A stretch of DNA of 64,000 nt from Sphaerisporangium krabiense. Its GTDB lineage: Bacteria; Actinomycetota; Actinomycetes; Streptosporangiales; Streptosporangiaceae. The stretch is from contig NZ_JACHBR010000001.1 in NCBI RefSeq assembly GCF_014200435.1, positions 1,488,001 through 1,552,000 of the forward strand, given 5' to 3'. Shown piece by piece: positions 1,394-35,397 of this stretch. The notes under the pieces are model-generated. The model searched no databases, was not told the origin of the DNA, and was given only the letters and a program-made list of their open reading frames with translations. Both the position numbers and the translations under genes were made by a program. Each line of letters begins with the position of its first letter. Position 1 is the stretch's first letter.

Positions 1394-2575
1394 ATGACCA
1401 CGACCATCCCGGACCCGACCGGCCAGGCCGCGCACACCGGCGACGCCGGCCGCCGGGTCTCGCCCGTCCTCGACGTGGACGCCATCCTCGACGACGAGGG
1501 CACCCGCATCGTGGTGTGCTGCGGCTCCGGCGGGGTGGGCAAGACCACGACGGCCGCGGCGCTCGCGCTGCGGGCGGCCGAGCGAGGACGCCGCGTCGTG
1601 GTGCTCACCGTCGACCCGGCGCGCCGCCTGGCGCAGTCCATGGGGCTCACCGAGCTGGACAACACCCCGCGGCCGGTCGCCGGCGTCAAGGGGGCGGGCG
1701 AGCTGCACGCCATGATGCTCGACATGAAGCGGACCTTCGACGAGATCATCGAGGCGCACGCCGACCCCGAGCGCGCCCGGCAGATCCTCACGAACCCCTT
1801 CTACCAGTCGCTGTCGTCCAGCTTCTCCGGCACGCAGGAGTACATGGCCATGGAGAAGCTCGGCCAGCTGCGCCGCTCAGACGAATGGGACCTGATCATC
1901 GTCGACACGCCCCCGTCGCGGTCGGCGCTGGACTTCCTCGACGCCCCCGAGCGGCTCGGCCGCTTCCTGGACGGGCGGCTGATCCGCATCCTGACGGCTC
2001 CGGCCAAGGCCGGGGGCCGCAGCGCCTTCAAGCTGCTCAACGCCGGGTTCGGCCTGGTGGCCGGGGTGCTGACGAAGATCCTCGGCGCGCAGTTCCTCAA
2101 GGACATCCAGACGTTCGTCGCCGGGCTCGACGCCGTGTTCGGCGGGTTCCGGCAGCGCGCGGAGCAGACCTACCGCCTGCTCCAGGCCCCCGGCACCGCC
2201 TTCGTGGTCGTCGCCGCGCCCGAGCGGGACGCGATGCGGGAGGCGTCGTACTTCGTGGAACGGCTCGCCGAGGAGCGCATGCCCCTGGCGGGCCTGGTGA
2301 TCAACCGGGTGCACCGATCCCCGGCGCCGGCCCTCTCGGCCGCGCGCAGTGCGGCCGCCGCCGAAGATCTGGAAGCGCGTGGCGAGCACGAGCTGACCGC
2401 CGCCGTGCTGCGGCTGCACGCCGGACGGATGCAACTCGCCGCTCGCGAGCACCGGGAACGCGACCACTTCGCCTCGGCACACCCCACCGTGCCGATCTCC
2501 GAGGTCCCCGCGATGCCGGAGGACGTCCATGACCTCGCCGGCCTGCGTCGGATCGGCGAGCTGCTGTCCTCGTGA
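1394..2575 (+). CDS. ArsA/GET3-family ATPase, second of a pair
   Basis: A 393-residue homologue of the preceding gene. Walker A G-S-G-G-V-G-K-T-T lies at residues 44-52 and the switch motif D-T-P-P-S-R-S near residue 176. The conserved stretch S-G-T-Q-E-Y-M-A near residue 145 is typical of actinobacterial ArsA2 proteins. A GGAGGA sequence at 1379-1384 gives a good ribosome site for the ATG at 1394. It is probably in an operon with the first ArsA gene. A strong hairpin at 2646-2669 ends the unit before the convergent WhiB gene. The substrate is unknown; synteny indicates the Rv3680 orthologue. Confidence 0.88.
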   Translation: MTTTIPDPTGQAAHTGDAGRRVSPVLDVDAILDDEGTRIVVCCGSGGVGKTTTAAALALRAAERGRRVVVLTVDPARRLAQSMGLTELDNTPRPVAGVKGAGELHAMMLDMKRTFDEIIEAHADPERARQILTNPFYQSLSSSFSGTQEYMAMEKLGQLRRSDEWDLIIVDTPPSRSALDFLDAPERLGRFLDGRLIRILTAPAKAGGRSAFKLLNAGFGLVAGVLTKILGAQFLKDIQTFVAGLDAVFGGFRQRAEQTYRLLQAPGTAFVVVAAPERDAMREASYFVERLAEERMPLAGLVINRVHRSPAPALSAARSAAAAEDLEARGEHELTAAVLRLHAGRMQLAAREHRERDHFASAHPTVPISEVPAMPEDVHDLAGLRRIGELLSS

Positions 2576-2645
2576 CCGGCGGACGGCGACCGTGATCGCC
2601 GTGGCCCCCGGAAGGTCGTGAAGGTTCTGACCCGGTGACGCCAGT

Positions 2646-2669
2646 GAGGGGCTGACCCGTCAGCCCCTC
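2646..2669. terminator. Bidirectional terminator between ArsA2 and WhiB genes
   Basis: A perfect 10-bp stem (2646-2655 with 2660-2669) with a CCCG loop lies between the convergent ArsA and WhiB genes, as expected for a shared intrinsic terminator. Confidence 0.75.
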
Positions 2670-2715
2670 TGTCGTGTCATCGGAGCGCGAGGCGACACCG
2701 CCCCCGCTCCTGAAC

Positions 2716-3012
2716 TCAGCCGGCGATCAGCTCGTTGGTCCGCTCGTACTCCTCCTTGGCGACCTCCAGAAGGTCGCGCCAGGAGGTGACGTCCGGCCGT
2801 CGCCTGAGCAGCGCTCGGCGCTCCCGCTCGGTCATGCCGCCCCAGACACCGAACTCGATGCGGTTGTCCAACGCGTCCGCGAGGCACTCCGTACGGACCG
2901 GGCATCCTCGGCAGATGAGCTTCGCCCTGTTCTGCGCGGCACCCTGCACGAACAACGCGTCAGGATCCGCACCTCGACAGGCGGCACGGGAGGTCCAATC
3001 CGTGATCCACAT
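2716..3012 (-). CDS. wblA: WhiB-family iron-sulfur regulator (WblA/WhiB4 type)
   Basis: A 98-residue WhiB-like protein. The four cluster-binding cysteines are C12, C34, C37 and C43 in the pattern C-x21-C-x2-C-x5-C. They are followed by the G-V-W-G-G turn near residue 58 and a basic C-terminal segment (R-E-R-R-A-L-L-R-R-R). WhiB proteins bind a 4Fe-4S cluster and act on transcription with the principal sigma factor in response to redox or nitric oxide. The position between the ArsA pair and the divergent PonA2-type gene is that of whiB4 (Rv3681c) in mycobacteria and wblA in Streptomyces, which fixes the paralogue better than the sequence alone. Start ATG at 3012. Confidence 0.9.
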   Translation of the reverse strand: MWITDWTSRAACRGADPDALFVQGAAQNRAKLICRGCPVRTECLADALDNRIEFGVWGGMTERERRALLRRRPDVTSWRDLLEVAKEEYERTNELIAG

Positions 3013-3154
3013 TTCGACCCCACTCCCCTATAGGTGGTCAGTCGTCACTTGGCGGCCGACGGGCGCGGGCGTCGAGCCTCCTTATTCAGTTGCCGCAGAG
3101 GAGAACGTACGCAACCAGACGTTGGGACCGACAGACCCCGGGCGGGTCAATTTC

Positions 3155-3180
3155 CCACATGGTCATGTCAGGCCATGTGG
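3155..3180. promoter_or_regulatory. Inverted repeat in the WhiB/PonA2 divergent promoter region
   Basis: CCACATGG at 3155-3162 and its exact complement CCATGTGG at 3173-3180 are separated by 10 bp, with a further CATG between them. It lies 45 bp before the penicillin-binding protein start. This looks like an operator for a dimeric regulator; the protein that binds is unknown. Confidence 0.45.
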
Positions 3181-3224
3181 CCGGGAATGACTAGTCATCT
3201 CCGCGCCGGGTAGCGGGCGAGTCA

Positions 3225-5543
3225 ATGCGAAATGGACTTTCGGTACCTATTGAGTCATGGGTTCGGCATACCCTTGGACGTGTGCAAGCTCAAGGCAAAG
3301 CTCACGGGTCCGTGTTCGGGAACCTGCTGCGGCTGATCGGGGCCGCCGTCGCCGCCGGCGTCCTCGCCGCGGCGATCGCCCTGCCCGCCGTGGGCGGCGC
3401 CGGCATGGGCGTCAAGAGCACCACTGACGTGCTCAACCTCAAGCCAGAAGAGCTCAAAGCGGATCCGCCTCCGGAGAAGACGGTGATCCGGGACTCCGAC
3501 GGCAAGCAGATCGCGCAGTTCTACTACCAGAACCGCGAATCAGTGACGCTGGACAAGGTCGCGCCCATCATGCGCCAGGCCATCATCGCCATCGAGGACT
3601 TCCGCTTCTACGAGCACGGGGCCCTCGACCTCGAAGGCTCGCTCCGCGCTCTCATGAAGAACTTCCAGTCCGGCGGCGTCGCCCAGGGCGGTTCCTCGAT
3701 CACCCAGCAGTACGTCAAGCAGGTGATCTTCAACAAGGCCGAGACCGACGAGGAGAAGGCCGCGGCCATCGCCCCGACCGTGTCGCGCAAGCTCAACGAG
3801 CTGCGGTACGCCATGGCGGTCGAGCAGGAGAACACCAAGGACCAGATCCTTGAGAAATACCTGAACATCGCCTACTTCGGCGCCAGCTCGTACGGCATCC
3901 AGGCCGCGTCCAAGCGCTTTTTCGACAAGCCGGCCTCCGAGCTGAACCTCGAAGAGGCCGCCACGCTCGCGGGGGCCGTGCAGAACCCCAACGCGACCGA
4001 CCCCAACCTCGGCAAGCAGCACCGGGCCGCCCTGCTGTCCCGGCGCAACGTCGTCCTCGACCGCATGGCCGAGCTGGGCAAGATCACACCGCAGCAGGCG
4101 GCCGAGGCCAAGGCCAAGAAACTGACGTACAAGGACATCTCCATCCCCGGCGGGTGCGAGCAGAGCAAGTACCCGTACTTCTGCCTGTACGTCCAGCACG
4201 AGATCCTCAACGACACGCAGTTCGGCAAGACCGAGAAGGCGCGCAGGGAGTTCCTCAACCGGGGCGGCCTCGTCATCAGGACGACGCTCGACACCAAGAT
4301 GCAGAAGGCCGCCGAGAAGGCGATCAAGAGGTTCGTGCACGCCTCCGACAAGCCCGTCGCCTCCGAGGCCCTCATCGAGCCCGGCACCGGCGCCATCAAG
4401 GCCATGGCCGCGAGCCGCAAGTTCGGCGGCAGCAAGAAGAAGAACGAGTCGAACTACAACCTCGTCGCCGACGTCGCGCACGGCGGTGGCACCGGCTTCC
4501 AGGCCGGGTCCACGTTCAAGGCGTTCACGCTGGCCACGGCCCTGAAAGAGGGCATGCGCTACGACGACGGCATCAACTCGGGCAGCAGCTTCCAGGCGAG
4601 CGGGTACAGCGACTTCAAGAACTGCAAGGGCGAGAACGTCGGCGACCCCAGCCACGTCGCCCACAACTCCGAGGGCGGCGGCGGGTTCAAGACCCTCAGG
4701 ACCGGCACCTGGGGCTCGGTCAACACCTTCTTCCTCCGGCTGGAGCAGAAGGTCGGGCTCTGCGACGTCGTCAAGACCGCCAAGGACCTCGGCATCAAGC
4801 GCGCCGACGGCGGCAAGCTGAGCGAGGTCGAGACCTTCACCCTCGGCGTCAACGAGATGGACCCGGTGACGGTCGCCGCCGCCTACGCCACCTTCGCCGC
4901 CCGCGGCAGCTACTGCAAGCCCATGGCGATCACCTCGATCACCGACCGCTTCGGCAAGAAGACCCAGTTCAAGCCCGCATGCAAGCAGACGCTGGACGAG
5001 AAGGTCGCCGACGCCGTCAGCGGCATCCTGTCCGGGGTCTTCACCAAGGGCACCATGACCGGCGTCGGCGGCATCGGCCGCGACGCGGCGGGCAAGACCG
5101 GGACCACCGACGGCTCCATGACCGCCTGGTTCGCCGGGTACACCCCCGACCTGGCCGGCGCCGTCAGCCTGGGTGACCCGCGCGGCTCCTACACCCACCC
5201 GCTGCGCAACATCCGCATCGGCGGCCGCTACTACGGCGAGGTGTTCGGCGCGACGATCTCCGGACGCATCTGGAAGGAGACGTTCCTCAGCGCGCTGAAG
5301 GGCATCGAGGCCTCGTCCTTCACGGCGCCGGACATGAGCCAGTTCGGCGGGTGCAGCGGCGGCTGCGCGCCCAAGGCGCCGCCCAAGACCCACGGCGAGG
5401 ACGGCGGCCCGTTCGAGGTCCCGAACGGCAACAACGGCGGCGGGGACATGCCCAACCTCCCGGACGTCACCACCAACGGCGGCGGCGGCACCACCGGCAC
5501 CACCGGCATCTACCCCGTCACCCCGGGCATCGCCCGGGACTGA
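3225..5543 (+). CDS. ponA2: Bifunctional class A penicillin-binding protein
   Basis: A 772-residue peptidoglycan synthase anchored by one membrane segment near residues 34-58. The GT51 glycosyltransferase domain (about 90-270) has the catalytic glutamate E124 in E-D-F-R-F-Y-E-H-G. The transpeptidase domain (about 370-680) has S429-T-F-K432, an S-V-N motif and K624-T-G-T. The tail after residue 715 is Gly/Asn/Thr-rich and low complexity, and no PASTA domain is seen. It lies divergent from the WhiB gene as ponA2 (Rv3682) does in M. tuberculosis. The ATG at 3225 is used; a GTG at 3282 would still keep the membrane anchor and is a real alternative. A strong terminator follows. Confidence 0.92.
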   Translation: MRNGLSVPIESWVRHTLGRVQAQGKAHGSVFGNLLRLIGAAVAAGVLAAAIALPAVGGAGMGVKSTTDVLNLKPEELKADPPPEKTVIRDSDGKQIAQFYYQNRESVTLDKVAPIMRQAIIAIEDFRFYEHGALDLEGSLRALMKNFQSGGVAQGGSSITQQYVKQVIFNKAETDEEKAAAIAPTVSRKLNELRYAMAVEQENTKDQILEKYLNIAYFGASSYGIQAASKRFFDKPASELNLEEAATLAGAVQNPNATDPNLGKQHRAALLSRRNVVLDRMAELGKITPQQAAEAKAKKLTYKDISIPGGCEQSKYPYFCLYVQHEILNDTQFGKTEKARREFLNRGGLVIRTTLDTKMQKAAEKAIKRFVHASDKPVASEALIEPGTGAIKAMAASRKFGGSKKKNESNYNLVADVAHGGGTGFQAGSTFKAFTLATALKEGMRYDDGINSGSSFQASGYSDFKNCKGENVGDPSHVAHNSEGGGGFKTLRTGTWGSVNTFFLRLEQKVGLCDVVKTAKDLGIKRADGGKLSEVETFTLGVNEMDPVTVAAAYATFAARGSYCKPMAITSITDRFGKKTQFKPACKQTLDEKVADAVSGILSGVFTKGTMTGVGGIGRDAAGKTGTTDGSMTAWFAGYTPDLAGAVSLGDPRGSYTHPLRNIRIGGRYYGEVFGATISGRIWKETFLSALKGIEASSFTAPDMSQFGGCSGGCAPKAPPKTHGEDGGPFEVPNGNNGGGDMPNLPDVTTNGGGGTTGTTGIYPVTPGIARD

Positions 5544-5562
5544 CCCGGCCCCGGCGCCACAC

Positions 5563-5611
5563 AGCCGAAGGGGCCCGCCACGGCATCACTCCGCGGCGGG
5601 CCCCTTCGGCT
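5563..5611. terminator. Terminator between the PBP gene and the convergent GatB/YqeY gene
   Basis: A 17-bp perfect stem (5563-5579 with 5595-5611) with a 15-base loop, placed between two convergent genes. Confidence 0.85.
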
Positions 5612-5654
5612 CGTACCCGGCGCCTCCTACGGCCCGGGATGCGCGCCGTCCCCC

Positions 5655-6110
5655 TCAGCCGGCGAGGTGCGCGCGGACGGCCTGGGCGACCCTGCCGCCC
5701 TCCGCACGGCCGGCGACCTTGGGGTTGAGAACCTTCATCACCTGCCCCATCGCCTTCGGCCCCTCGGCGCCGCTCTCGGCGATCGCCTCCTGGACCAGAC
5801 GGTCGAGCTCCTCGTCGCTGAGCTGCGCCGGCAGGTACTCCTCAAGCACGGCCTGCTCGTCCTGCTCGGCCCGCGCCTGCTCGGCCCGGCCGGCGCCCGC
5901 GAAGGCCTCCGCCGCCTCACGCCGCTTCTTGGCCTCCTTGGTCAGCACCTTGACGACCTCGTCGTCCGAGAGCTGCCTGGCCTCCTTACCCGCGACCTCC
6001 TCCGTGCTGACGGCCGCCAGAGCCATGCGGAGCGTCCGCGTCCGCAGCTCGTCCCGCGCCTTCATCGCCGTAGTGAGATCGGCCTTCAGCTTGTCCTTCA
6101 GAGCACTCAT
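5655..6110 (-). CDS. GatB/YqeY domain protein
   Basis: A 151-residue all-helical protein of the YqeY family. It begins M-S-A-L-K-D-K-L-K and carries the family's K-A-R-D-E-L and basic K-R-R-E-A-A-E-A-F segments. The domain resembles the tail of the GatB amidotransferase subunit and is thought to bind tRNA, but the stand-alone protein has no settled function. The inner ATG at 6110 is preferred over one at 6137 because it matches the usual N-terminus of the family. It is divergent from the metallophosphoesterase gene with only 56 bp between starts, so both promoters must be very compact. Confidence 0.88.
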   Translation of the reverse strand: MSALKDKLKADLTTAMKARDELRTRTLRMALAAVSTEEVAGKEARQLSDDEVVKVLTKEAKKRREAAEAFAGAGRAEQARAEQDEQAVLEEYLPAQLSDEELDRLVQEAIAESGAEGPKAMGQVMKVLNPKVAGRAEGGRVAQAVRAHLAG

Positions 6111-6166
6111 GGCGACCATCTTGCCGTGAGGAGGCATGGGCGGGTGGGCTCGGGCATCATGAAGGG

Positions 6167-7072
6167 GTGAGGAAAGCTGCCGCGATACCCCTGTCCCTGC
6201 TAGGTCTCGGCGTCGCCGGGCTCGGCTACGCGTCCGTCGTCGAGCGCAACTGGTTCCGGCTGCGCCGCTTCGACGTGCCGGTCCTCCCGCCGGGGCAGCG
6301 TCCGGTGCGCATTCTCCACCTCTCCGACCTGCATCTCACCCCGGGGCGCACCCATCTGATCAACTGGGTCCGCTCGCTGGACGCCCTCGAACCCGATCTC
6401 GTGGTGAACACCGGCGACACCATCGCCCACCCGGACGCCGTCCCCGCCTACCTGCGCGCGGTCGAGCCCCTGCTGGCCCGTCCGGGCCTGTTCGTCTACG
6501 GGTCCAACGACCTGTACTCGCCGCACTTCAAGAACCCCGCACGCTACCTGTGGCGCTCGTCCAAGTCCGACGGCCGGCGCAGCGTCCCCGACCTGCCCTG
6601 GCCGGAGCTGGGCGAGGGCATGACGGCGGCGGGCTGGCTGGACATGAACAACACCACCGCCAGCATCAAGGTGGGCGATCTGGACGTCTTCGTGGGCGGC
6701 ATCCACGACTCGCACATCAACCGCGACCGCTACGACGAGATCGCCGGCCCCGCCCCCGCGGAGGCCGACCTGCGCCTCGGGGTCATGCACTCCCCCGAGC
6801 CCAGCAACATGTCCCGCTTCGCCGCCGACGGCTACCAGTTGCTCCTCGCCGGGCACACCCACGGCGGCCAGCTCTGCATCCCCTTCTACGGCGCCCTGGT
6901 GACCAACTGCGGCATCGATCGCGCCCGCGTGAAGGGCCTGCACCGCCACGACTCCGCCTGGCTCCACGTCTCCGCGGGCCTCGGCACCTCCCCCTTCGCC
7001 CCCGCCCGCTTCTCCTGCCCCCCCGAGGCCACCCTGCTCACCCTCGTCCCCCGCCGCCCCACCCGCCGCTGA
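6167..7072 (+). CDS. Membrane-anchored metallophosphoesterase
   Basis: A 301-residue calcineurin-like phosphoesterase. An N-terminal hydrophobic segment (residues 5-24) is followed by metal-binding motifs in order: L-S-D-L-H near residue 51, N-T-G-D near 79, a G-S-N-D variant of GNHD near 109, V-M-H-S-P near 205 and G-H-T-H-G-G near 230. GSND in place of GNHD is common in this actinobacterial group. The GTG at 6167 has a short purine stretch (AAGGGG) just before it. It is syntenic with Rv3683 of M. tuberculosis, next to PonA2, which hints at a cell-envelope role. The substrate is unknown. Confidence 0.87.
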   Translation: MRKAAAIPLSLLGLGVAGLGYASVVERNWFRLRRFDVPVLPPGQRPVRILHLSDLHLTPGRTHLINWVRSLDALEPDLVVNTGDTIAHPDAVPAYLRAVEPLLARPGLFVYGSNDLYSPHFKNPARYLWRSSKSDGRRSVPDLPWPELGEGMTAAGWLDMNNTTASIKVGDLDVFVGGIHDSHINRDRYDEIAGPAPAEADLRLGVMHSPEPSNMSRFAADGYQLLLAGHTHGGQLCIPFYGALVTNCGIDRARVKGLHRHDSAWLHVSAGLGTSPFAPARFSCPPEATLLTLVPRRPTRR

Positions 7073-11097: not shown

Positions 11098-11979
11098 GTG
11101 GGGTCACCACTGGGGAACTTCATCAGGTCGAAGCGTGACAGCATCCAGCCGGAATCCCTTGGTCTGCCGGACCGCGGCCGCCGCCGGTCACCGGGTCTGC
11201 GCCGGCTGGACCTCGCCACGTGCGCCGGCATCAGCGTTGAATACCTGACGCGCATCGAGCAGGGCCGCGACCGCAATCCATCGCCGACGGTCGTCAACGC
11301 CCTCGCCGACGCGCTCCGCCTCGACTCCCCGGAGCGCAACCACCTGCGCTACCTCGCGAAGATCACCGGTGACGAATGCTCCATCCTCATCCGTCCCGTG
11401 CCACCGTCCCGGCGCGTGCGACCGCCCGTCCTGCGGACGCTCCGCCTCCTCGAACCCAGCGTCGCCATCGTGACCAACCGGCTGGGCGACGTCCTCGCCC
11501 ACACCAGCGGCTACCGACTGGTCACCAGCGGGACGGGCCTGCTCGACGACGCCCATCCGAACCTCAACCGCTACCTGTTCACCGACCCCCGCGCCCGGAC
11601 GTTCTTCGTCGACTGGGACGACGTCGCGGACGAGCAGGCCTTCGATCTTTGGCAGGCGCCGTCCCTGGAGAACCTCGAATGGCTCACCGCGGAGCTCACC
11701 CCCATCGCCGGGCCTGACTTCACCGACCGCCTGAACCGTCACGTGGTGCCGCGACGCGGCGTCCTCCGGCTCGACCACCCGTCCGGTCACCGGCTTCGAC
11801 TGCTTCGTGAGACCCTCGAACTGCCCGCGGAGGCCCAACAACTGGTCGTCTTCCTCCCGGCCGACGACCAGACGGCCGAGGCCATCGACCAGCTCGAGCA
11901 CGAGTCCCGCGGCCGACCCGGTCCATCTCGTGACACACCGCGAACTCAGCACTCCCAACCGGTCCAAGCCACGGTGTGA
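11098..11979 (+). CDS. XRE-family regulator with MmyB-like ligand domain
   Basis: A 293-residue protein. An N-terminal helix-turn-helix (about residues 20-80, with I-S-V-E-Y-L-T-R-I-E-Q-G-R typical of this group) precedes an MmyB-like PAS-type domain (about 105-270; V-T-N-R-L-G-D-V-L-A and D-P-R-A-R-T-F-F-V-D-W are characteristic). Such proteins repress a divergent transporter or oxidoreductase and are released by small ligands, which fits the MFS gene 119 bp away. GTG 11098 is the start. The usual L-R-x-R-R-E-x-L-x-P opening looks altered, so the extreme N-terminus may be degraded. Confidence 0.85.
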   Translation: MGSPLGNFIRSKRDSIQPESLGLPDRGRRRSPGLRRLDLATCAGISVEYLTRIEQGRDRNPSPTVVNALADALRLDSPERNHLRYLAKITGDECSILIRPVPPSRRVRPPVLRTLRLLEPSVAIVTNRLGDVLAHTSGYRLVTSGTGLLDDAHPNLNRYLFTDPRARTFFVDWDDVADEQAFDLWQAPSLENLEWLTAELTPIAGPDFTDRLNRHVVPRRGVLRLDHPSGHRLRLLRETLELPAEAQQLVVFLPADDQTAEAIDQLEHESRGRPGPSRDTPRTQHSQPVQATV

Positions 11980-12293: not shown

Positions 12294-12322
12294 TAACTTC
12301 CTGTCACTATGACAAGAAGTTA
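12294..12322. promoter_or_regulatory. 29-bp palindrome, probable NrtR-type operator
   Basis: A 13-bp arm, TAACTTCCTGTCA, at 12294-12306 is mirrored at 12310-12322 with a single mismatch and a 3-bp centre. It lies 10 bp before the start of the Nudix regulator and must overlap its promoter. NrtR regulators bind TGTCA/TGACA-containing palindromes of this kind, so autoregulation of the 12333-16248 operon is likely. Confidence 0.8.
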
Positions 12323-12332
12323 CGGTGTACTC

Positions 12333-13097
12333 ATGAGCGTCGAACCTTGGGAACCGCCCAGCGTTCTGCTGGCAGTGGACCTGGTGATCTTGACTCTGCG
12401 GAGTGCCCGCTTGCATGTGTTGCTCATCGAACGTGGTGTTGAGCCTTATCGCGGTTCGTTCGCCTTACCTGGAGGATTCCTCAGCCATGGAGATGAGGAC
12501 ATATTCGTGGCGGCGCGTCGTGAGCTGTCCGAAGAGGCCGGTCTTGCCGATGTGCCGCATCTTGAGATGCTGAGTGTGTACGGTGAGCCAGGACGCGACC
12601 CTCGTGGCCGAGTGATCTCGGTGGCCTACCTGGCGATCGCACCGCGCTTGCCGGAGCCTGTCGCCGGCACGGATGCGGCGGGTGCCTGTTGGAAACCCGT
12701 AGAAGATGTTTTGTCCTCCGGTCTGAAATTGGCGTTCGACCATCGGCGGATCATCGCGGATGGCGTCGAATGCGCGCGCGTGAAGCTGGAACATTCGGCA
12801 CTCGCCACGGCGTTCTGCGCTGACACCTTCACCATCTCGGAACTACAGCAGGTGTACGAGGCGGTGTGGGGTGTCCGGCTTGATCCTCGGAATTTCTATC
12901 GCAAGGTTCAGAACGCCCGCGGCTTCATCGTCCCGGCCGGCCCTATGCGGCGAACGGAGAATGGGCGGCCTGCCCGGCTCTTCAAGCCGGGCCCGCTCCA
13001 GGTTTTGTATCCCCCGATGGCCCGTTCGGCGCAGTCCGTATCCGCGCCCCCTGGCGACTCGACGGCGCAGAACCCTGAAGGAGGTGTGCTCTCATGA
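12333..13097 (+). CDS. NrtR-like Nudix-winged-helix regulator
   Basis: A 254-residue two-domain protein. The N-terminal Nudix domain (about 8-145) contains R-R-E-L-S-E-E-A-G-L, so the acidic catalytic core of the Nudix box is kept, although one extra residue sits between the first glycine and the first glutamate. The C-terminal winged helix (about 150-225) has the NrtR-like F-T-I-S-E-L-Q-Q-V-Y-E and R-N-F-Y-R-K-V. NrtR proteins sense ADP-ribose or related NAD metabolites and usually repress NAD genes. Here the regulator heads an operon with a nucleosidase and a membrane protein, and its stop overlaps the next start (ATGA). Enzyme activity is possible but not certain. Leu TTA codons occur here and in the next two genes. 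Confidence 0.85.
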   Translation: MSVEPWEPPSVLLAVDLVILTLRSARLHVLLIERGVEPYRGSFALPGGFLSHGDEDIFVAARRELSEEAGLADVPHLEMLSVYGEPGRDPRGRVISVAYLAIAPRLPEPVAGTDAAGACWKPVEDVLSSGLKLAFDHRRIIADGVECARVKLEHSALATAFCADTFTISELQQVYEAVWGVRLDPRNFYRKVQNARGFIVPAGPMRRTENGRPARLFKPGPLQVLYPPMARSAQSVSAPPGDSTAQNPEGGVLS

Positions 13098-14251
13098 ACG
13101 AGCGCCCCGTCGTGATCCTCACCGCTCTGGATCTGGAGTACGAAGCAGTCCGGAGACACTTATCCGACCTACGACTACATCGCCACCGGGCTGGGACGCG
13201 ATTCGAGATCGGTCGTCTCCCGAACGGCTGCCACGTGGCCCTGGGACTGGTCGGAAAGGGTAACCAACCCGCTGCCGTGCTCACTGAGCGGGCGATCACC
13301 GAGTTCGATCCGTTCGCCTTGCTGTTCGTAGGCGTCGCCGGTGCCCTCTGGCCCGACGTCGACTTAGGCGATGTTGTGATCGCGACCCACGTCTACGCCT
13401 ACCACGGCGGCACCAGCGAGGACGACGGGTTGAAAGCACGTCCTCGCGTCTGGGAGATCTCGCACGAGCCGGATCAGATTGCCCGTCATCTGGTCAGGAA
13501 CGGCACCTGGAAACGCCGCCTTCCTGCCGATCAGGCCGCGGCGGAAGTCCGCTTCGGGCCGATCGCGGCCGGCGAGGTCGTGCAGGATTCCGCGATTTCA
13601 GCACATGCTCAATGGGTTCGCCAGACCTACAACGACGCGCTGGCGATAGAGATGGAAGCCGCCGGGGTGGCGCAAGCCGCCCATTTGAACAGATCGCTTC
13701 CGATGGTCGTGATACGCGGCATCAGCGACCGGGCCGACGGCACCAAGGTGAAGACCGACGGCGTTGGCTGGCAGGCGAAAGCGGTGACGAATGCCGCAGC
13801 ACTCGCTCTCGCCCTCGCCGAGGAACTTGCTCGGGAGACGCTCCGTGGCAACGTCGCCGACAGGACAGAGAAGGCGGAAGGCGAATCCATGCCCGAAATC
13901 GTGAGGAACGTTGCCAAGGGAAGTGCCCATGTGGGGGTACAGGCCGGCCGTATCTACGGCAATGTGTCGATCGGGCAGCCGTCTCAGGCCGTACTCGATC
14001 CGGCAGGACAACTCGCGGACCTCCGCCACAAGCTCTCAAAGGCCTGCGCGGCCGGAGATGTGGACGTGGCCACCTTCACTGCAGCAGAGGAAGAGATCGA
14101 CGTCGCCGCCCAATCGCTGTCGGAGAACACCGACCAGGGCAAGAACAAGGCGATGATCGCACTCCGGAGGCTGCGGGGGCTGCTGATGGATGTGGCCGAC
14201 CTGGCCTCGAAAGTCGCCTCGGTCATCGCCGCGATACGAGGCACGTTATGA
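13094..14251 (+). CDS. MTAN/PNP-family nucleosidase with C-terminal amyloid-like motif
   Basis: A 385-residue protein. Residues 1-245 are a purine nucleoside phosphorylase/MTA-SAH nucleosidase domain: I-L-T-A-L-D-L-E at the start, F-V-G-V-A-G-A-L-W near 76, the ribose-binding A-I-E-M-E-A-A-G-V-A near 180, and R-G-I-S-D-R-A-D-G with the catalytic aspartate near 206. Housekeeping MTAN proteins end here; this one continues with a linker, a 23-residue motif at 272-294 (V-G-V-Q-A-G-R-I-Y-G-N-V) and a helical tail. The motif recurs at the N-terminus of the next protein. PNP domains are known effectors in bacterial STAND/NLR conflict systems, so this is read as a candidate toxic or signalling effector. 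Both ends overlap the neighbours by ATGA. Confidence 0.85.
   Translation: MNERPVVILTALDLEYEAVRRHLSDLRLHRHRAGTRFEIGRLPNGCHVALGLVGKGNQPAAVLTERAITEFDPFALLFVGVAGALWPDVDLGDVVIATHVYAYHGGTSEDDGLKARPRVWEISHEPDQIARHLVRNGTWKRRLPADQAAAEVRFGPIAAGEVVQDSAISAHAQWVRQTYNDALAIEMEAAGVAQAAHLNRSLPMVVIRGISDRADGTKVKTDGVGWQAKAVTNAAALALALAEELARETLRGNVADRTEKAEGESMPEIVRNVAKGSAHVGVQAGRIYGNVSIGQPSQAVLDPAGQLADLRHKLSKACAAGDVDVATFTAAEEEIDVAAQSLSENTDQGKNKAMIALRRLRGLLMDVADLASKVASVIAAIRGTL
13907..13975 (+). other. RHIM-like amyloid motif, copy in the nucleosidase
   Basis: Residues 272-294 align without gaps to residues 10-32 of the next protein. Nine of 23 positions are identical, including V-G-V-Q and a later G-x-V, with I/V, I/L and N/D exchanges elsewhere. 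The pattern V-x-Q-x-G-x-I-x-G-x-V resembles the RHIM-like class of bacterial amyloid signalling sequences found in actinomycete NLR proteins. Assignment is by eye. Confidence 0.6.
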
Positions 14252-16248
14252 ACGCGTCCACCGTTACCTCGGCCAACATCGCTGAGGAGGGGGCAACCGT
14301 CGGCGTTCAGACGGAGGCGCTACACGGAGACGTCTATGTGTATCAACTGCCTCCCGATGCGACGCCGCAGCAAAAATTCGAGGTGGGAGTCAAATGTCTG
14401 CGCGGTGGCATGTCGGCGAGGGCGAGAGAGTACATCAGCGATGCCGTGGTGCAGGGGCATGTGACGAGCCGCTCATGCTTCTATCTGCTCCTCGCTCTGC
14501 TGAGCGGCCGTACACTGCAGCAGGTCCCGAAGGAGGACCTCGACGTATTGCGGTCCGTCCAGGCGCGAATCGTCGAGCGGCCTGGTGACACGTGGGTAAT
14601 TGCGGTCAGGATGCTCAGCGACCTTCTGACGTCGCTCCAGACCGGTTCCGTGGATTCGGAAGCCATAGAGCGGGATCTTCAGGCATTAGGCACCCGTCAG
14701 CGGGACGAGATTTTCCGGCATCTCGAAATGCTTCTGAGTGGTCCCGCTCTGGACGGGCTCTGGGCGCGTGCGTTTGCGTCGGCGAAGGCGGAGCGGTGTG
14801 ACTATGAGCGCCTGCGGCGGGTCTGGAAGTTCTTCCAGCCCGAGCCGATCGGCGCACGGGTACGGTCGCCGCGTCCGGCAGCGATCACGGTTGGCGATTG
14901 GATCCGATCGATCGCCACCACGATGCTGTCGCTGACATCCGTCAGCTTCATCGGAGCGGTGTCGTGGCAGCACGCCTGGTCATCGACGGCGCTGGCCCTA
15001 CCCCTCTTCACCGCTGGTTGCCACGCCTGTGCACGACACGGCGTGGAGTGGCGGTTCAGGGTGCAGCGCCGTCAAGAGAAAGACCGACAACATTGGACCG
15101 CGGGGCAACGACCGATCGCCGCCCCGCAAGGCGGTTTCGCGAATCAGATCGACCGTCAGTTCGACTACTATTTCGCGAGGTACGTTCCACGAAACACTGA
15201 CAGGGCGGAGTGGCTCACCCGGACGGCCGCTATCCGCCGATGTCTACGTGATGAAGTCGTGGAGCTGTACCGGGAGAGCAGGGTCGATGCGAAACGAGTG
15301 GCCTGGCTCACCAGATATCTCGTCAGCGACGTGAAAGGACGCTGGCAGGACGGCACGCTATGGGATTACCGCGACCGACTGAGGGTCACGGCATCCATGA
15401 AGGTGCTGTTCACTCTCGGGGTAGCCGCCCTTATCGTGGGCGGGGCGATGATGACGTGGAGCGCGCTGTACGTCAGACCGCTCAGTGTCGTCGGTGCCAC
15501 CGTCGTCGCCATATGGGGCGGATGGATCGCATGCGCGACCTGGTTACGCATAATCCTCGAACACAAGAGGCTGACCGCGGAGCAGGCGGAGGCGGATCTA
15601 CTCCTGGCCGAGCGCCGTGCGGCCTTCGAACGATGGAAGAGCAAGCTGGCGGACAAACCCACCGATTTGGAGATGGCCCACTGGCTGGACTGCGATCGTA
15701 AGGCGTTGATGGAAGAGGCGATGCGGCACTACAAGCTCGCCGCAGCCGATGTCATCGCCCATGCCTTCATCGAGGCACCTGCGAGCTACTACAAGCGGGC
15801 CAGGGTGCGAAAGGGCCCCTGGCGCTATTCGAGGTACAAGCTGCTGACCTTCCTGCTCACCGCCGATGGTGTGCGCCAACTGACCGTTGAACTCGACTTC
15901 GAGAAGGCCACCTTCCATGATCGGGCACGTATCAACTACCGCTACGACGCTGTCGCGGCGGTAGAGGTGACCGAAGCCGATGATGGCCACAAGACGTTCG
16001 AACTCACACTCGTCAACGGTCATCCGATCGAGGTCGAGGTGACCGGACCCCCACCCGGAACCGACCAACTGGGGGAGGACACGCGCATGGTGTCCCAGGC
16101 GACTCTCGATACCGCAGGATTGGGGAACACCCTGCACATTCTTGAAGGTGTCGCCGCCGAAGGAAAGGAATGGATCAGGAACGAGCGCGAGCGTGAGCGA
16201 GTCGGGTCAGCCGATCTCGCGGATGCGGCCCGCAGGCTTCTCGCTTAG
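14248..16248 (+). CDS. Membrane protein with N-terminal amyloid-like motif, partner of the nucleosidase
   Basis: A 666-residue protein. Residues 10-32 carry the motif shared with the upstream nucleosidase. Residues 38-200 are alpha-helical and TPR-like (repeated A-R-E-Y and L-L-L-A-L-L segments). Hydrophobic stretches at about 220-262 and the hairpin at 383-406/412-435 anchor it in the membrane. A charged helical part (436-500) leads to a beta-rich C-terminal domain (about 525-610, L-T-F-L-L-T-A-D-G-V-R-Q-L, R-I-N-Y-R-Y-D). I recognise no enzyme domain. By analogy with paired amyloid-signalling genes it could be the sensor or the membrane executor that nucleates the nucleosidase. ATG 14248 overlaps the upstream stop. 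Confidence 0.8.
   Translation: MNASTVTSANIAEEGATVGVQTEALHGDVYVYQLPPDATPQQKFEVGVKCLRGGMSARAREYISDAVVQGHVTSRSCFYLLLALLSGRTLQQVPKEDLDVLRSVQARIVERPGDTWVIAVRMLSDLLTSLQTGSVDSEAIERDLQALGTRQRDEIFRHLEMLLSGPALDGLWARAFASAKAERCDYERLRRVWKFFQPEPIGARVRSPRPAAITVGDWIRSIATTMLSLTSVSFIGAVSWQHAWSSTALALPLFTAGCHACARHGVEWRFRVQRRQEKDRQHWTAGQRPIAAPQGGFANQIDRQFDYYFARYVPRNTDRAEWLTRTAAIRRCLRDEVVELYRESRVDAKRVAWLTRYLVSDVKGRWQDGTLWDYRDRLRVTASMKVLFTLGVAALIVGGAMMTWSALYVRPLSVVGATVVAIWGGWIACATWLRIILEHKRLTAEQAEADLLLAERRAAFERWKSKLADKPTDLEMAHWLDCDRKALMEEAMRHYKLAAADVIAHAFIEAPASYYKRARVRKGPWRYSRYKLLTFLLTADGVRQLTVELDFEKATFHDRARINYRYDAVAAVEVTEADDGHKTFELTLVNGHPIEVEVTGPPPGTDQLGEDTRMVSQATLDTAGLGNTLHILEGVAAEGKEWIRNERERERVGSADLADAARRLLA
14275..14343 (+). 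other. RHIM-like amyloid motif, copy in the membrane protein
   Basis: Residues 10-32 (A-T-V-G-V-Q-T-E-A-L-H-G-D-V inside) match the motif in the nucleosidase position by position. Location at the very N-terminus before a helical domain is the usual arrangement for amyloid signalling motifs in receptor proteins. Confidence 0.6.
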
Positions 16249-16514: not shown

Positions 16515-16592
16515 TCGGTACGGCCGCCTCCCCAACGCCTGTTCCGCTCTGGAGCGGATGGGGAAGGTGAAGGGTGAGGGGAGGAGGCGGAT

Positions 16593-16799
16593 ATGAAGGC
16601 TGAAGTTGGGGATCGGCTGGTTCTTGAGGGGACGCGGCCGGGGAGTCATCGCCGGGTCGGCGTGATCACGGCGTTGCATCATGACGATGGGTCGCCGCCG
16701 TATGACGTGCACTGGCTTGATCAGGATCACGAATGCCTGGTCTTCCCTGGGCCGGACGCCCATATCGAGCATCCGGCCACCGGGCGCCAGGGGGGCTGA
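16593..16799 (+). CDS. DUF1918 protein
   Basis: A 68-residue protein starting M-K-A-E-V-G-D-R-L-V with the family core R-R-V-G-V-I-T and P-P-Y-D-V-H-W. It ends with H-E-C-L-V-F-P-G-P-D-A-H-I, the typical DUF1918 SH3-like beta barrel. GAGGAGGCGG ends 4 bases before the ATG. Function is unknown. The converging multicopper oxidase gene follows on the other strand. Confidence 0.88.
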   Translation: MKAEVGDRLVLEGTRPGSHRRVGVITALHHDDGSPPYDVHWLDQDHECLVFPGPDAHIEHPATGRQGG

Positions 16800-16883
16800 C
16801 GGCCGGCGGACCAGGTGTCACCGGGGCTGAACGCGGCCGGGTGAGGGGGTGCCCGGACGATCGCGTCATGCTCTCCTCGCCGG

Positions 16884-18800
16884 TCATGGGCCGATGCGGT
16901 AGGGGCGCATCATTTCGTTGTCCTCGTGTTCGAGTAGGTGGCAGTGCCAGACGAACAGGCCGGGGCGGTCGAAGTAGGCCTTGACGCGGGTGATCTGGTG
17001 GGGGTAGGCGATCACGGTGTCCTTGTAGCCGCGTTCCCAGGGCTCGGGGGGCCGGGTGCCGTGGTCGAAGCCTCGGCGGTCGGCGACCTGGAAGGCGATC
17101 TCGTGGATGTGGATCGGGTGGGCGTCGGGGGTGAAGTTGTGGATCTCCCAGATCTCGGTGGCGCCCACGGCGGGGGTCTCGGTGAGCCGGTCGGACCACA
17201 TCATGGGCATGGGACGGTGATCCTCATCGAGGGTGCCCAGCAGCACGGCGGCCGGACCGGCGCCGCGCACTACCGCCGAGTTCCGTTCGACCAGGGCCAC
17301 CCGGCGGGTCGCGTTCTCCGTGCCCAGGTGGGGGAACGACGGCAGGGTGAGGCGGTCGGGCGGCACGCTGCGGTCGGGTCCCCGTGAGTCGCGGACGGCG
17401 AACTTCATCACCTGCCCGGTGGTCGCCGGGTCGGCCGGCGCGGCGTGGGGGTCCCCTTTGTAGGCACCGTCCGGGCCCTCGTTGATCAGGTAGAGATCCG
17501 TGCCGGGCCGTACGCCGGTGAAGTCCACGATGACGTCGGCGCGTTCGGCCGGGGCGAGCAGGACGTGGCCGAGGCGCACCGGGGCGGGCAGGAAGCCGCC
17601 TTCCGATCCGATGTGCCAGAACGGCAGGGCCGCCCGCGCGGGTCGCCTTGCCAGCGGGTCGGTCACGATCTTCAGGTTCAGGACGCGGCCGTTGGAGCCG
17701 TTGAGGATGCGGAAACGGAACCGGTGCGGCTCGACCTCCAGGTACGGCCAGGTGCGGCCGTTGACCATCATCGCCGCGCCGAAGAACTCGGGGTTCCAGA
17801 TGGGCGGGATGTCGCCGCGCGGCGCGTACGGCCCACTGAAGCGGTCGAAGTAGGCGCGCCCGCCGGGGTAGAACAGCGCGCCGTCGGCGGTGAACGAGCG
17901 GTCCTGCACCACGATCGGGATCTCACGGTACCCCCTGCGCCCGCCGTCGCCGGCCGTCGGCGCCGGCCCGGGGAGCACGCCGGGGGGAAGGTCGGAAGGG
18001 CCGCCCCGCAGCAGGTAGAAGCCTGCCAGGCCGGCGTAGGTGTTCAGCCGGGTGATGCCCAGCGCGTGGTCGTGGTACCACATCGTGGCGGCCCGCTGGT
18101 CGTTGCCGTAGTGGAACACCGCCGACCCCGGGGGCCAGGACCCGCCGTGCGCCGCGGCGTACGCCGCGGCGAACTGCGCGTACCACGATCCTTCCGCCGC
18201 GTAGCCCGTCGGGAGGTTCCGCGCCGCGGGCAGGTACCACGCCTCGGGAAAGCCGTCGCTGTGGTCGGCGCTGTGCCCGCCGTGCAGGTGGGTGACCAGC
18301 GGGACCGGCCCCCGGTAGCGGCCGGGGGTGGCGTCCAGGTGCGGGCGGCCGTCCCTGCCGGTCGGGCCGCCCGGAGGGTTGGCCCAGTGCAGGGTGGGGT
18401 CCACCGGGAGCAGGTGCGGCAGATACCTGCCGTCCTGGTCGACCAGCTCGTTGGCCCACCGCACCCGTACCGGACGGCCGGCCACGGCCTCGATGGTGAA
18501 CCCCGGGCTGCTGAAGGTCCGCGGGTCGTGCGTCGCGCCGTAGCCCCACACCACGGTCGGCGGATGGCCGGGCGGCAGGATCTGCTGCCGGAACCGCCGC
18601 ACCCCGATCGTGTACCGGTCGAGGGCCCCGTCCTGCCCCGGGGTCTGCGGCATCACCGGCGGGACGATCAGCGGCGTGACGTACTTGGCGATCCGCCGGG
18701 GGTCCGCCGGCGGCACCGCCCGTACGCCGCCCGCGATCGCACCGGTGAGCAGGACGGCCGTCCCGCCCGCCGCTCTCAGGAACTCGCGTCTGGTGAACAC
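16884..18800 (-). CDS. Multicopper oxidase, Tat-exported
   Basis: A 638-residue oxidase. The GTG at 18800 is chosen because it follows GGGGAGG and directly begins the Tat signal M-F-T-R-R-E-F-L-R-A-A-G-G. Copper ligand motifs appear in order: T-H-L-H-G-G-H near residue 190, W-Y-H-D-H-A-L-G near 250, H-P-I-H-I-H near 560 and H-C-H-L-L-E-H-E-D-N-E-M-M at the C-terminus. The architecture matches the phenoxazinone synthase/bilirubin oxidase/CotA group of three-cupredoxin laccases. It oxidises phenolic or bilirubin-like substrates, or Cu(I), in the cell envelope with O2 as acceptor. No copper chaperone is adjacent. Confidence 0.92.
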   Translation of the reverse strand: MFTRREFLRAAGGTAVLLTGAIAGGVRAVPPADPRRIAKYVTPLIVPPVMPQTPGQDGALDRYTIGVRRFRQQILPPGHPPTVVWGYGATHDPRTFSSPGFTIEAVAGRPVRVRWANELVDQDGRYLPHLLPVDPTLHWANPPGGPTGRDGRPHLDATPGRYRGPVPLVTHLHGGHSADHSDGFPEAWYLPAARNLPTGYAAEGSWYAQFAAAYAAAHGGSWPPGSAVFHYGNDQRAATMWYHDHALGITRLNTYAGLAGFYLLRGGPSDLPPGVLPGPAPTAGDGGRRGYREIPIVVQDRSFTADGALFYPGGRAYFDRFSGPYAPRGDIPPIWNPEFFGAAMMVNGRTWPYLEVEPHRFRFRILNGSNGRVLNLKIVTDPLARRPARAALPFWHIGSEGGFLPAPVRLGHVLLAPAERADVIVDFTGVRPGTDLYLINEGPDGAYKGDPHAAPADPATTGQVMKFAVRDSRGPDRSVPPDRLTLPSFPHLGTENATRRVALVERNSAVVRGAGPAAVLLGTLDEDHRPMPMMWSDRLTETPAVGATEIWEIHNFTPDAHPIHIHEIAFQVADRRGFDHGTRPPEPWERGYKDTVIAYPHQITRVKAYFDRPGLFVWHCHLLEHEDNEMMRPYRIGP

Positions 18801-18966
18801 TCCGGCCTCCCCTCGCCGGATCGGACGCCCGGCACGCCGAAACCCCGGGTCCGTCCTCCCTGCGAAGCCACCCCCCACAAAAGCCCCAAATGTGGACATA
18901 CCCACCGGCCGAGCTAGGACATCGACGTACGGCTGGGCTCTGGTCGGCGGTGCGCCGGGGCGGCGT

Positions 18967-20352
18967 TCAGTGGGTGGTTCTCGGGTTCACGCGGCAGTTG
19001 GTGTGCAGGTATTGGGCCGGGCCGTTGGTGAAGTCGTAGATGGCCACGGTTTGGGGGTCCTCCTGGGGGGCGTCGGAGAGCATCAGGAAGTGGGTTTCGC
19101 TGACGGGGAGGAGTTCGTAGTCCAGGCGTTCCGATTGGCGGAGGAAGGCGGCCTGTGCGGGGTTCTGGACCAAGGTGAGAACGAGCCTGCCGGCCTCGGC
19201 ACGCACTTCGTAGCGGATGCCGGGGCGCCCGTAGACGCCTTCGTAGCGGGAGAGGTCGAGGGCGAGCGCGGGGTCGGGGTGCGGCAGGCCGGGGATCGTG
19301 GGCAGGTTCAGGGCGGAGAGGATCTCGTTGAACGCCTTGCGGTAGAAGCCGTCGCGTGGGCCCGCGTTCGCCAGCATCGTGAGGGCGGTGCCCGAGTCGG
19401 GCAGGACGCGCAGGCGGGCGTTCTGGCCGATGGTGCTGCCGTCGTGGGCGTAGACGGTCTCGCCGTGCCAGTCGCAGACGATCAGGCCGAGGGCCCATTC
19501 CTGTCCGAAGGTGTACGGGTCGGGTATCGGCACGCGGGACCGGGTCATCTCGTGGACGGCCTCCGCCGAGAGGACGCGGGCGCCGTCCGGCGCCTCTCCC
19601 CCGCTGAGGAGGACGTGCGCCATCGCGAGGACCTCCCGGGCGGTCGAGGAGATGTTGCCTCCGGGGCCGAACGCGCGGGGCAGATGGCTCACGGGTGAGA
19701 CGACCGGGTCCTCGTCGAGGGACGGGATCAGATATCCCGTGGCGGCCCGGGCCGGGTCCACCTGCCCGTGCCACGTGGTCGTGGCCGTCAGGCCGAGGGG
19801 GACGAAGAGGCGGTCGCGCATGACGGCGTCCCACGGTTTGCCGTCGATCACCTCCATGACGCGGGCGAGGATCGCGTAGCCGAGGGCGGCGCTGTACCCG
19901 TGGGTGTGGCCCAGCGGGTGGACCTGGGGGGCGTCGGCGATGGCGGCGACCATGCGCTCGTACACGTCCTCGCCCTCGCCGGGGTTCCCGATGTCCTCCT
20001 CGATGCCGTGCGTGTGGTTCAGCAGGTGCCGGGGGGTGACCTTGGCGCCGACCTCGGGGTCGGCGACCCGGAAACCGGGCAGGTACGTCCGCACCGGCTC
20101 GTCCAGGCCGGCCTTCCCCTCGTCGACGAGTCGCATGAAGGCGAGGGCGGTCCAGGTCTTGCTCATGGATCCGCACTGGTAGACGGTGTCGGTCGTCGCG
20201 GGTTCGCGCGTCTCCAGGTTCTTCAGGCCGACGGCGAAGTCGGTCACCCGCCCGTCGTGGAGGACGCCGACCACCGCGCTCGGGATCCGGTACTCGGCGA
20301 GCAGCTCGGCCATCCGGGCGCGGACGCGCGTCAGATCCGGTTCGTCGGTCAT
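18967..20352 (-). CDS. Serine beta-lactamase-like hydrolase (class C / S12 family)
   Basis: A 461-residue cytoplasmic protein without signal peptide. The nucleophile motif S-M-S-K lies in Q-C-G-S-M-S-K-T-W near residue 73. H-G-Y-S-A takes the place of the Y-x-N motif near 165, and a Y-A-H-D-G motif near 320 replaces K-T-G. A C-terminal beta domain (about 360-461) resembles that of D-aminopeptidase/esterase-type members. This suggests a peptidase or esterase rather than a resistance beta-lactamase. ATG 20352 begins M-T-D-E-P-D-L; longer upstream frames are low-complexity arginine-rich and not believable. The small gene at 20364 lies 11 bp upstream, so the two form an operon. Confidence 0.87.
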   Translation of the reverse strand: MTDEPDLTRVRARMAELLAEYRIPSAVVGVLHDGRVTDFAVGLKNLETREPATTDTVYQCGSMSKTWTALAFMRLVDEGKAGLDEPVRTYLPGFRVADPEVGAKVTPRHLLNHTHGIEEDIGNPGEGEDVYERMVAAIADAPQVHPLGHTHGYSAALGYAILARVMEVIDGKPWDAVMRDRLFVPLGLTATTTWHGQVDPARAATGYLIPSLDEDPVVSPVSHLPRAFGPGGNISSTAREVLAMAHVLLSGGEAPDGARVLSAEAVHEMTRSRVPIPDPYTFGQEWALGLIVCDWHGETVYAHDGSTIGQNARLRVLPDSGTALTMLANAGPRDGFYRKAFNEILSALNLPTIPGLPHPDPALALDLSRYEGVYGRPGIRYEVRAEAGRLVLTLVQNPAQAAFLRQSERLDYELLPVSETHFLMLSDAPQEDPQTVAIYDFTNGPAQYLHTNCRVNPRTTH

Positions 20353-27922: not shown

Positions 27923-28210
27923 ATGAACAACCAGGTGACGGCGGCGACCGCCGGGCTGACCGAGACCGAGGTCCGTGAATGGCTGGTCGGAAAGCTGGCC
28001 CACCGGCTCGGCGTGCCGGCGGAACAGGTGGACGCCGACCAGTATTTCGACGAGTTCGACCTGGACTCGACCGAGGCGCTGGTCCTTTCCGGCGAGCTGG
28101 AGAACTGGCTCGGATTCGAGCTGGAGACCACCGCCCTCTGGTACCACCCGACCATCAACGAGCTCGCCGGCTACATCGTGGAGAAGCAGCGCGATGCGAC
28201 GGCCCGATAG
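27923..28210 (+). CDS. Free acyl carrier protein
   Basis: A 95-residue carrier protein. The phosphopantetheine serine sits in F-D-L-D-S-T-E-A-L-V near residue 51, a D-S-T variant of the usual D-S-L, followed by the second helix (L-S-G-E-L-E-N-W-L-G-F-E-L) seen in PKS-associated ACPs. ATG 27923 is preceded by GAGGAA. The stop overlaps the start of the giant PKS gene by 17 bp. A separate carrier beside a synthase that has its own ACP suggests it loads a starter or carries the chain during tailoring by the flavoenzymes. Confidence 0.87.
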   Translation: MNNQVTAATAGLTETEVREWLVGKLAHRLGVPAEQVDADQYFDEFDLDSTEALVLSGELENWLGFELETTALWYHPTINELAGYIVEKQRDATAR

Positions 28211-35366: not shown

Positions 35367-35397
35367 ACGCCCCTCGTTCGAGAGCGGATGGAGAGTC

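Follow-up and report, generated by a model that had tools for sequence, protein, structure and literature searches.

Immune effectors of the PNP superfamily, which are ATP nucleosidases, occur in CBASS, Detocs and other systems. PNP and TIR domains are placed among bacterial conflict-system effectors in the sections consulted of PMC7159879 and PMC8195603, and those of PMC12881547 name them as immune modules that hydrolyse ATP and NAD. NLR-effector amyloid pairs are described in filamentous bacteria and fungi in the consulted sections of PMC7889193, PMC9815663, PMC8086366 and PMC7885112, and a review of the field poses there, as an open question, whether bacterial or fungal signalling amyloids exist in NLR-independent pathways (PMC7889193). 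The subject of this analysis is a three-gene cassette on the + strand of a 64,000-nucleotide stretch of the Sphaerisporangium krabiense genome (contig NZ_JACHBR010000001.1, positions 1,488,001 to 1,552,000; the whole stretch is called the window). The cassette encodes an NrtR-like regulator, an MTAN/PNP-superfamily nucleosidase and a membrane partner of an unnamed family (MEM). On sequence evidence it reads as one form of an actinobacterial effector system that is non-NLR, membrane-anchored and motif-paired and whose role is probably abortive defence, and it points to an immune-like switch independent of the usual NLR receptors. A description of the cassette was not found in the literature searched, including the consulted sections of the conflict-system papers PMC7159879 and PMC8195603.

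A first-pass annotation of the window, made from the sequence alone, had proposed that the nucleosidase and its neighbour carry matching amyloid motifs of 23 residues, at nucleosidase residues 272-294 and MEM residues 10-32. This ungapped match was reproduced, with 9 identities, 15 positives and a BLOSUM62 score of 43. The best ungapped 23-residue alignment of the two whole proteins was the same stretch shifted by one position, with a score of 45; when both proteins were shuffled 1000 times, 6 shuffles attained this score, and 4 of 1000 did so when only the nucleosidase extension was used. The single match in the window is thus suggestive rather than overwhelming when it is taken alone. The homologous three-gene loci that the annotation had proposed to search for form a conserved family across the order and the class. 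This family was represented by 118 loci with copies left out (seven loci were excluded from the counts as copies), and in 97 of these a nucleosidase lies next to MEM and the MEM is of sufficient length for scoring. In 92 of the 97 loci both motifs outscored every one of the 970 shuffled controls. The exceptions are L097, in which the start is called late, L108 and L142, in which the nucleosidase frame is broken before the motif, L140, which is a fragment, and L198, in which the MEM motif was unrecognised. The annotation had named homologues that keep the folded domains and lack the motif as evidence that would tell against its proposal; the full three-gene loci mostly keep the motif, with few exceptions.

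The motif columns of the nucleosidase had a mean entropy of 1.84 bits over 36 dereplicated loci, compared with 3.22 and 2.83 bits in the flanks. A family motif profile run on the organism's own genome found both motif places (3.0e-9 and 6.7e-9) and no third motif protein; the next match (0.17) lies antisense to a radical-SAM-like frame, named by sight, and was rejected as a chance antisense frame. When 148 genomes of the class were scanned, matches at E<=0.001 occurred in 6 genomes only, all of which bear the cassette, and the reach of the profile is limited, as at least one cassette genome (G010) was missed. Because the pair is conserved across the family, the sequence comparisons confirm it as real, and chance likeness was rejected on the same ground, with both motifs present in 92 of 97 loci and the operator described below in 83 of 83.

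The MEM gene is also found beside other effectors. Thirteen full-length MEMs have no adjoining nucleosidase; that of L037 is close to the end of a contig, and the other 12, which are divergent, follow another gene, encoding a TIR-like (five loci), BTAD-like (six) or cyclase-like protein (one). Pfam searches with five of these twelve partners gave TIR_2 for L122 (4.5e-11) and L125 (1.2e-10), BTAD for L130 (1.9e-9) and L136 (4.1e-10), and nothing at E<=1 for the cyclase-like partner of L128; the other seven partners, and the label cyclase-like, were named by sight. In 10 of the 12 loci an upstream frame that ends near the MEM start has a recognisable matching motif at the C-terminus, and 8 of these 10 frames overlap the MEM gene by 4 nt. 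The window shows the corresponding 4-nt start/stop overlap of nucleosidase and MEM genes, and so do 82 of the 96 loci fetched. Among 8 non-redundant loci with other effectors the cognate motifs scored a mean of 72.6, compared with 41.0 over all pairings, and only 2 of the 40,320 possible pairings, the true one included, reached the cognate mean (2 of 120 for the five TIR loci alone). This test used windows cut by hand and omitted L131 and L134, which are near copies, and L135 and L136, which have no clear pair. In L124 and L126 both partners show the same deviation from the family motif pattern, and the motif of one is nearly a copy of the other. The BTAD-like proteins with a C-terminal motif beside MEM include SARP/BTAD-type proteins at L130 (3019-4059), L131, L132, L134 and L136, and membrane-linked control of transcription is possible at such loci.

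A different arrangement was found at L118-L121, where the nucleosidase is 70-72% identical to that of the window and the MEM only about 30% identical; the partners have therefore been exchanged. A small extra gene (120-167 residues; L118, 3490-3993) lies between nucleosidase and MEM in these loci and encodes a motif and a helical domain of the type that follows the nucleosidase motif. The motif of this extra gene fits the MEM better than the nucleosidase motif does in three of the four loci, and its product is possibly an adaptor or regulator. When effector labels were placed on a MEM tree of 54 rows, hand-picked from the 118 loci, the PNP and BTAD labels required two changes each and the TIR and PNPmini labels one each. 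The total of five is the minimum for six labels, so that the tree indicates that effector exchange happened and lends no support to repeated exchange beyond this minimum. These comparisons mark MEM as the shared component of a modular system in which the effector may also be of TIR, SARP/BTAD or cyclase-like type, a feature that is absent from the first-pass annotation.

Cognate partners were also preferred within the nucleosidase loci. In 87 loci cognate motifs scored 56.8 and non-cognate motifs 47.3, and in a set of 36 dereplicated loci the cognate mean was not attained by any of 5000 shuffles of the partners. This preference is mostly relatedness. The set of 87 omits L097, L108, L140, L142 and L198, which have no clear motif on one side, and L118-L121 and L127, in which MEM stands apart from the nucleosidase.

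The nucleosidase matches PNP_UDP_1 over residues 5-241 (5.8e-34), and the C-terminal extension that had been noted in it amounts to 144 further residues. Residues E15, E188 and D212, which we take by alignment to be the equivalents of E. coli E12, E174 and D197, are present in 94 of 94 homologues; the protein should therefore be an active enzyme. The nearest solved structures are 5'-methylthioadenosine/S-adenosylhomocysteine (MTA/SAH) nucleosidases (2.7e-12 with the single sequence and 3.3e-21 with a profile). The cassette enzyme shares the fold and catalytic residues of these metabolic enzymes, whereas it differs from them in its motif-bearing extension and in scores below the NCBIfam MTAN equivalog cut-offs (91.7 against 169 bits and 53.1 against 73.8 bits). 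Its likeness to PNP immune effectors, which had been suspected, was borne out by the PADLOC profile PDLC00759, 'Effector, PN-superfamily' (3.3e-19). PADLOC searches with the three cassette proteins gave effector profiles only, and no CBASS or Detocs sensor or cyclase gene; in this the cassette differs from CBASS and Detocs, whose partner genes it lacks.

The domain of about 91 residues that follows the motif is present in most cassette nucleosidases, and four distant loci (L123, L199, L200 and L201) end shortly after the motif. It matched no Pfam family above cut-off, the best being DUF5955 (0.004, in 2 of 8 sequences). Eighteen further nucleosidase places were fetched, and seven other weak ones were left out. 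At L221 and L222 the nucleosidase domain (50% and 44% identical) is fused to nSTAND1 (1.4e-84 and 7.9e-89) and WD40-like repeats, and one further place among the 18 is fused to an AAA_16 domain; close cousins of the cassette domain therefore sit in NLR-like proteins. The L221 and L222 proteins (2375-6679, and 2537-6766 on the - strand; 1435 and 1410 residues from the match start) are one-chain NLR-like versions. They combine sensor and effector in a single protein, and unlike in the cassette, the motif profile finds no paired motif in them. Three motif-bearing nucleosidases among the 18 have no MEM, namely L230 (an orphan), L231 (at a contig end) and L237 (broken). The nucleosidases of L224 (2058-3569) and L229 (3837-4715, - strand) carry other motif-like C-terminal stretches (NVVQHGNLYVN and AVQKGVQNI), which perhaps represent other motif families, and at L229 a cyclase-like frame follows the nucleosidase.

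At E<=1, MEM of the window had no match to a family in Pfam, NCBIfam or PADLOC, and no STAND NTPase was among the 25 Pfam families listed as matches for 64 MEM homologues; scattered weak Pfam or PADLOC matches of single members gave no lead. The earlier statement that the partner is not a NACHT/NB-ARC NLR and has no named family held in Pfam, NCBIfam and PADLOC, and an NLR partner was rejected, as searches of these collections, and of PDB with a MEM profile, gave no NLR domain. The only match of a MEM profile to PDB was a designed helical protein (2.5e-4, profile positions 33-155). N10, A12 and Q21, within the motif, are present in at least 90% of the 64 homologues. Hydropathy averaged over these homologues gives two hairpins, and the side on which the basic residues lie predicts that the N-terminus, the middle and the C-terminus are inside the cell. 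The two predicted hairpins are the least conserved part of the protein apart from its C-terminal end.

The paired motifs resemble those of the described systems in their placement. As in BASS pairs, the motif lies at the N-terminus of the partner and on the C-terminal side of the effector, with the difference that the domain of about 91 residues usually follows it here. In contrast to BASS/NLR pairs, the place of the partner is taken by a membrane protein that lacks a STAND/NLR domain, and the effectors are a nucleosidase (window, PNP_UDP_1), TIR (sister loci), BTAD or cyclase-like proteins, not BELL. Of the BELL, TIR and CHAT domains expected of the effector in such pairs, the window protein has none, and TIR is seen in the sister loci. 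The GVQ-G core occurs also in the Frankia BASS3 peptide given in the consulted part of PMC8086366. GxQxG is found in 77 of 94 nucleosidase motifs and 48 of 94 MEM motifs, and the PP/RHIM core GxQxGxN in only 3 and 2 of the 94, respectively, all from distant loci. Another similar system, as far as the consulted sections of PMC9815663 describe it, is the fungal PNP_UDP effector with the PUASM motif, in which a C-terminal effector motif is likewise matched by an N-terminal motif of the neighbouring protein. That system differs in being fungal, in its pattern (FxGxGxQxxGxGxF) and in its partner, which is a NACHT or NACHT-WD40 NLR.

The first-pass annotation had described three genes joined by ATGA at both junctions under one palindromic site, and the coordinates and the palindrome were confirmed (Table 1). 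The operator arms (12294-12306 and 12310-12322, 13 nt each) are 92% complementary. A search for its core, written as CTTNNTGTCNNNNNGACANNAAG, around the start of the NrtR gene gave a site with at most two mismatches in 83 of 83 loci (48 perfect, 31 with one mismatch and 4 with two) and in none of 1660 shuffles; in 79 of the 83 loci the site lies at position -13 or -14. No other copy with up to two mismatches was found in the organism's own genome, so that a wider regulon there was rejected and the regulator probably serves the cassette only. The regulator contains both a Nudix domain (NUDIX, 4.5e-16) and the winged helix of NrtR (NrtR_WHD, 2.3e-15). The proposed assignment to the NrtR type is therefore upheld by the domains and the conserved, cassette-specific operator, whereas the NCBIfam equivalog for the ADP-ribose-responsive NtrR was not reached (112 bits, cut-off 400). 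Translation more probably begins at the in-frame ATG at 12333, because many NrtR homologues align only from about there. The Nudix box RELxEE is kept in 62 of 62 homologues; since its last glycine (Gly78) is variable, a binding rather than hydrolysing domain is possible.

Table 1. Features of the cassette, in coordinates of the window
Feature	Position	Strand	Basis or remark
Palindromic operator, core CTTNNTGTCA-NNN-TGACANNAAG	12294..12322		covers first possible ATG of the NrtR gene
NrtR-like regulator, Nudix domain and NrtR winged helix (gene 1)	12309..13097	+	domain profiles
MTAN/PNP-superfamily nucleosidase, 385 aa (gene 2)	13094..14251	+	Pfam, catalytic residues
Shared motif, nucleosidase residues 272-294	13907..13975	+	motif comparison, family profile
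Probably helical domain after the nucleosidase motif, ~91 residues	13976..14248	+	homologue alignment
Membrane partner (MEM), 666 aa, unnamed family (gene 3)	14248..16248	+	profile searches
Shared motif, MEM residues 10-32	14275..14343	+	motif comparison, family profile
Soluble, probably helical (TPR-like) MEM region, residues ~35-210	14350..14877	+	inference from designed-protein match
First predicted membrane hairpin of MEM, residues ~222-262	14911..15033	+	hydropathy, 64 homologues
Second predicted membrane hairpin of MEM, residues ~386-429	15403..15534	+	hydropathy, 64 homologues
C-terminal soluble MEM region, best conserved part	15535..16245	+	conservation, hydropathy

In the genomes sampled, the cassette family is conserved yet patchily distributed. 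Within the order, 96 of 297 genomes hold a MEM relative, spread over 26 of 62 genera; the corresponding counts are 24 of 394 for the class, 2 of 296 for a phylum sample and 3 of 10 for the same genus. Genome G220 has no cassette, and its matches to window positions 11605-11672 and 16538-17132 lie only 33 bp apart; it also lacks most of the downstream multicopper oxidase gene (16538-18970), and the site looks variable. A single copy was found among 72,556 plasmid records (L202), on the linear, mobilizable plasmid pLBRS of Streptomyces sp. M54 (NZ_CP059899.1), where a NUDIX protein, a nucleosidase and a hypothetical protein form the trio. Searches of 50,697 phage records and of viral contigs gave none, which is neutral for a defence role. 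The neighbours in the window are a MerR regulator, an MFS transporter, an MmyB-type regulator, a multicopper oxidase and a beta-lactamase-fold protein. Farther away, at positions 27975-42582, both strands carry open frames of great length (up to 2546 residues), perhaps a modular biosynthesis cluster.

Since the motif is paired and private, and the effectors are exchangeable and include two types (PNP and TIR) that destroy nucleotides, the simplest reading is that the system works like the NLR-effector amyloid pairs with a membrane protein replacing the NLR. MEM would be anchored by its two predicted hairpins, with the N-terminus, the helical region and the C-terminal region in the cytoplasm, and the G-x-Q beta-type motif within its first 35 residues is predicted to pair homotypically with that of the effector encoded just upstream. 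Upon a trigger, MEM may cluster, and its motif would template that of the effector. The nucleosidase, once concentrated or ordered, would cleave the base off a purine nucleoside or nucleotide (perhaps ATP), and the infected or stressed cell would stop growing. The NrtR-like repressor is expected to hold expression low through its own operator, and may release it upon a change in NAD metabolites. The sequences themselves establish the gene order and overlaps, the operator, the motif pairing, the intact active site and the exchange of effectors; the assembly, its direction, the substrate, the trigger and the defence role belong to the proposed model. We lean slightly, and no more than slightly, towards such a nucleation-type mechanism with a role in defence or stress suicide.

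Five results weigh against this mechanism. When body distances were removed, the co-variation of the motifs in the nucleosidase loci was weak (87 of the 97 loci; partial Mantel r 0.086, with 86 of 2000 permutations as high). Among the eight non-redundant loci with other effectors, the cognate MEM was the single best match for only five effectors, and the other three scored higher with L129 or others. The motif likeness could be a relic of shared descent, or chance, without function between the two proteins, as the little co-variation that is left and the 6 of 1000 shuffles reaching the score of the window pair would allow. This we find hardly credible, as both motifs are kept in nearly all nucleosidase loci and the cognate matching extends across unrelated effector folds.

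The third point against nucleation is that the motif profile did not score one published 21-residue BASS3 peptide above its 1000 shuffles. The interpretation in the first-pass annotation is thus supported only in part: the paired motifs, the effector domain, the regulator and the non-NLR partner stood, and a link to BASS3 by profile was not obtained. The fourth is the genomic setting. A defence island around the cassette, the context that the annotation had asked to have examined, was rejected, because among the 10 flanking frames PADLOC gave a match below 1e-10 only for the MerR protein and no other defence neighbours were seen. This setting would suit a metabolic operon, in which an NrtR that senses an NAD metabolite regulates an MTA/SAH or related nucleosidase, the enzyme is docked to MEM and the motif is an ordinary docking element. 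The NrtR family generally controls NAD metabolism, and MTA/SAH nucleosidases are the nearest solved relatives of the enzyme. The MTAN equivalog cut-offs that were missed, the patchy distribution with the empty site in G220, the exchange of the nucleosidase for TIR and other effectors, and the operator without a second site in the genome all argue against a metabolic operon, and we consider it improbable.

Lastly, the SARP/BTAD partners look like transcription factors and are a poor fit with plain suicide. With their OmpR-type DNA-binding domain, BTAD-type partners are easier to see as regulators that are tethered and released. The motif pair may accordingly hold the effector inactive at the membrane until a trigger frees it, in which case MEM would be an anti-effector or brake and not a nucleator. 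Translational coupling, which gives near-equal amounts of nucleosidase and MEM, and the poor conservation of the predicted hairpins, as for a mere anchor, are consistent with such a brake. The published beta-type pairs with the motif at the receptor N-terminus and the effector C-terminus are, however, nucleating according to the consulted sections of PMC7889193 and PMC9815663, and release from a tether appears rather unlikely to us.

If nucleation by MEM is nevertheless preferred, it can be extended, tentatively and with more doubt than confidence, to the family as a whole: an NLR-independent signalosome, in which a membrane receptor would nucleate exchangeable effectors through a private RHIM-like motif, with outputs by nucleotide cutting (nucleosidase, TIR), a second messenger (cyclase-like) or transcription (SARP/BTAD). 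If this is true, the activity of a transcription factor in the SARP/BTAD case would depend on amyloid-type assembly or its release. The family offers a test case for NLR-independent signalling amyloids, as it combines a few hundred MEM residues, a locus-specific motif pair and natural effector swaps. MEM, which is unnamed in the Pfam, NCBIfam and PADLOC copies used, may also serve as a membrane marker gene in searches for defence systems. In filamentous bacteria, clustering of a receptor could, as the cassette suggests, lead to nucleotide loss or to transcription.

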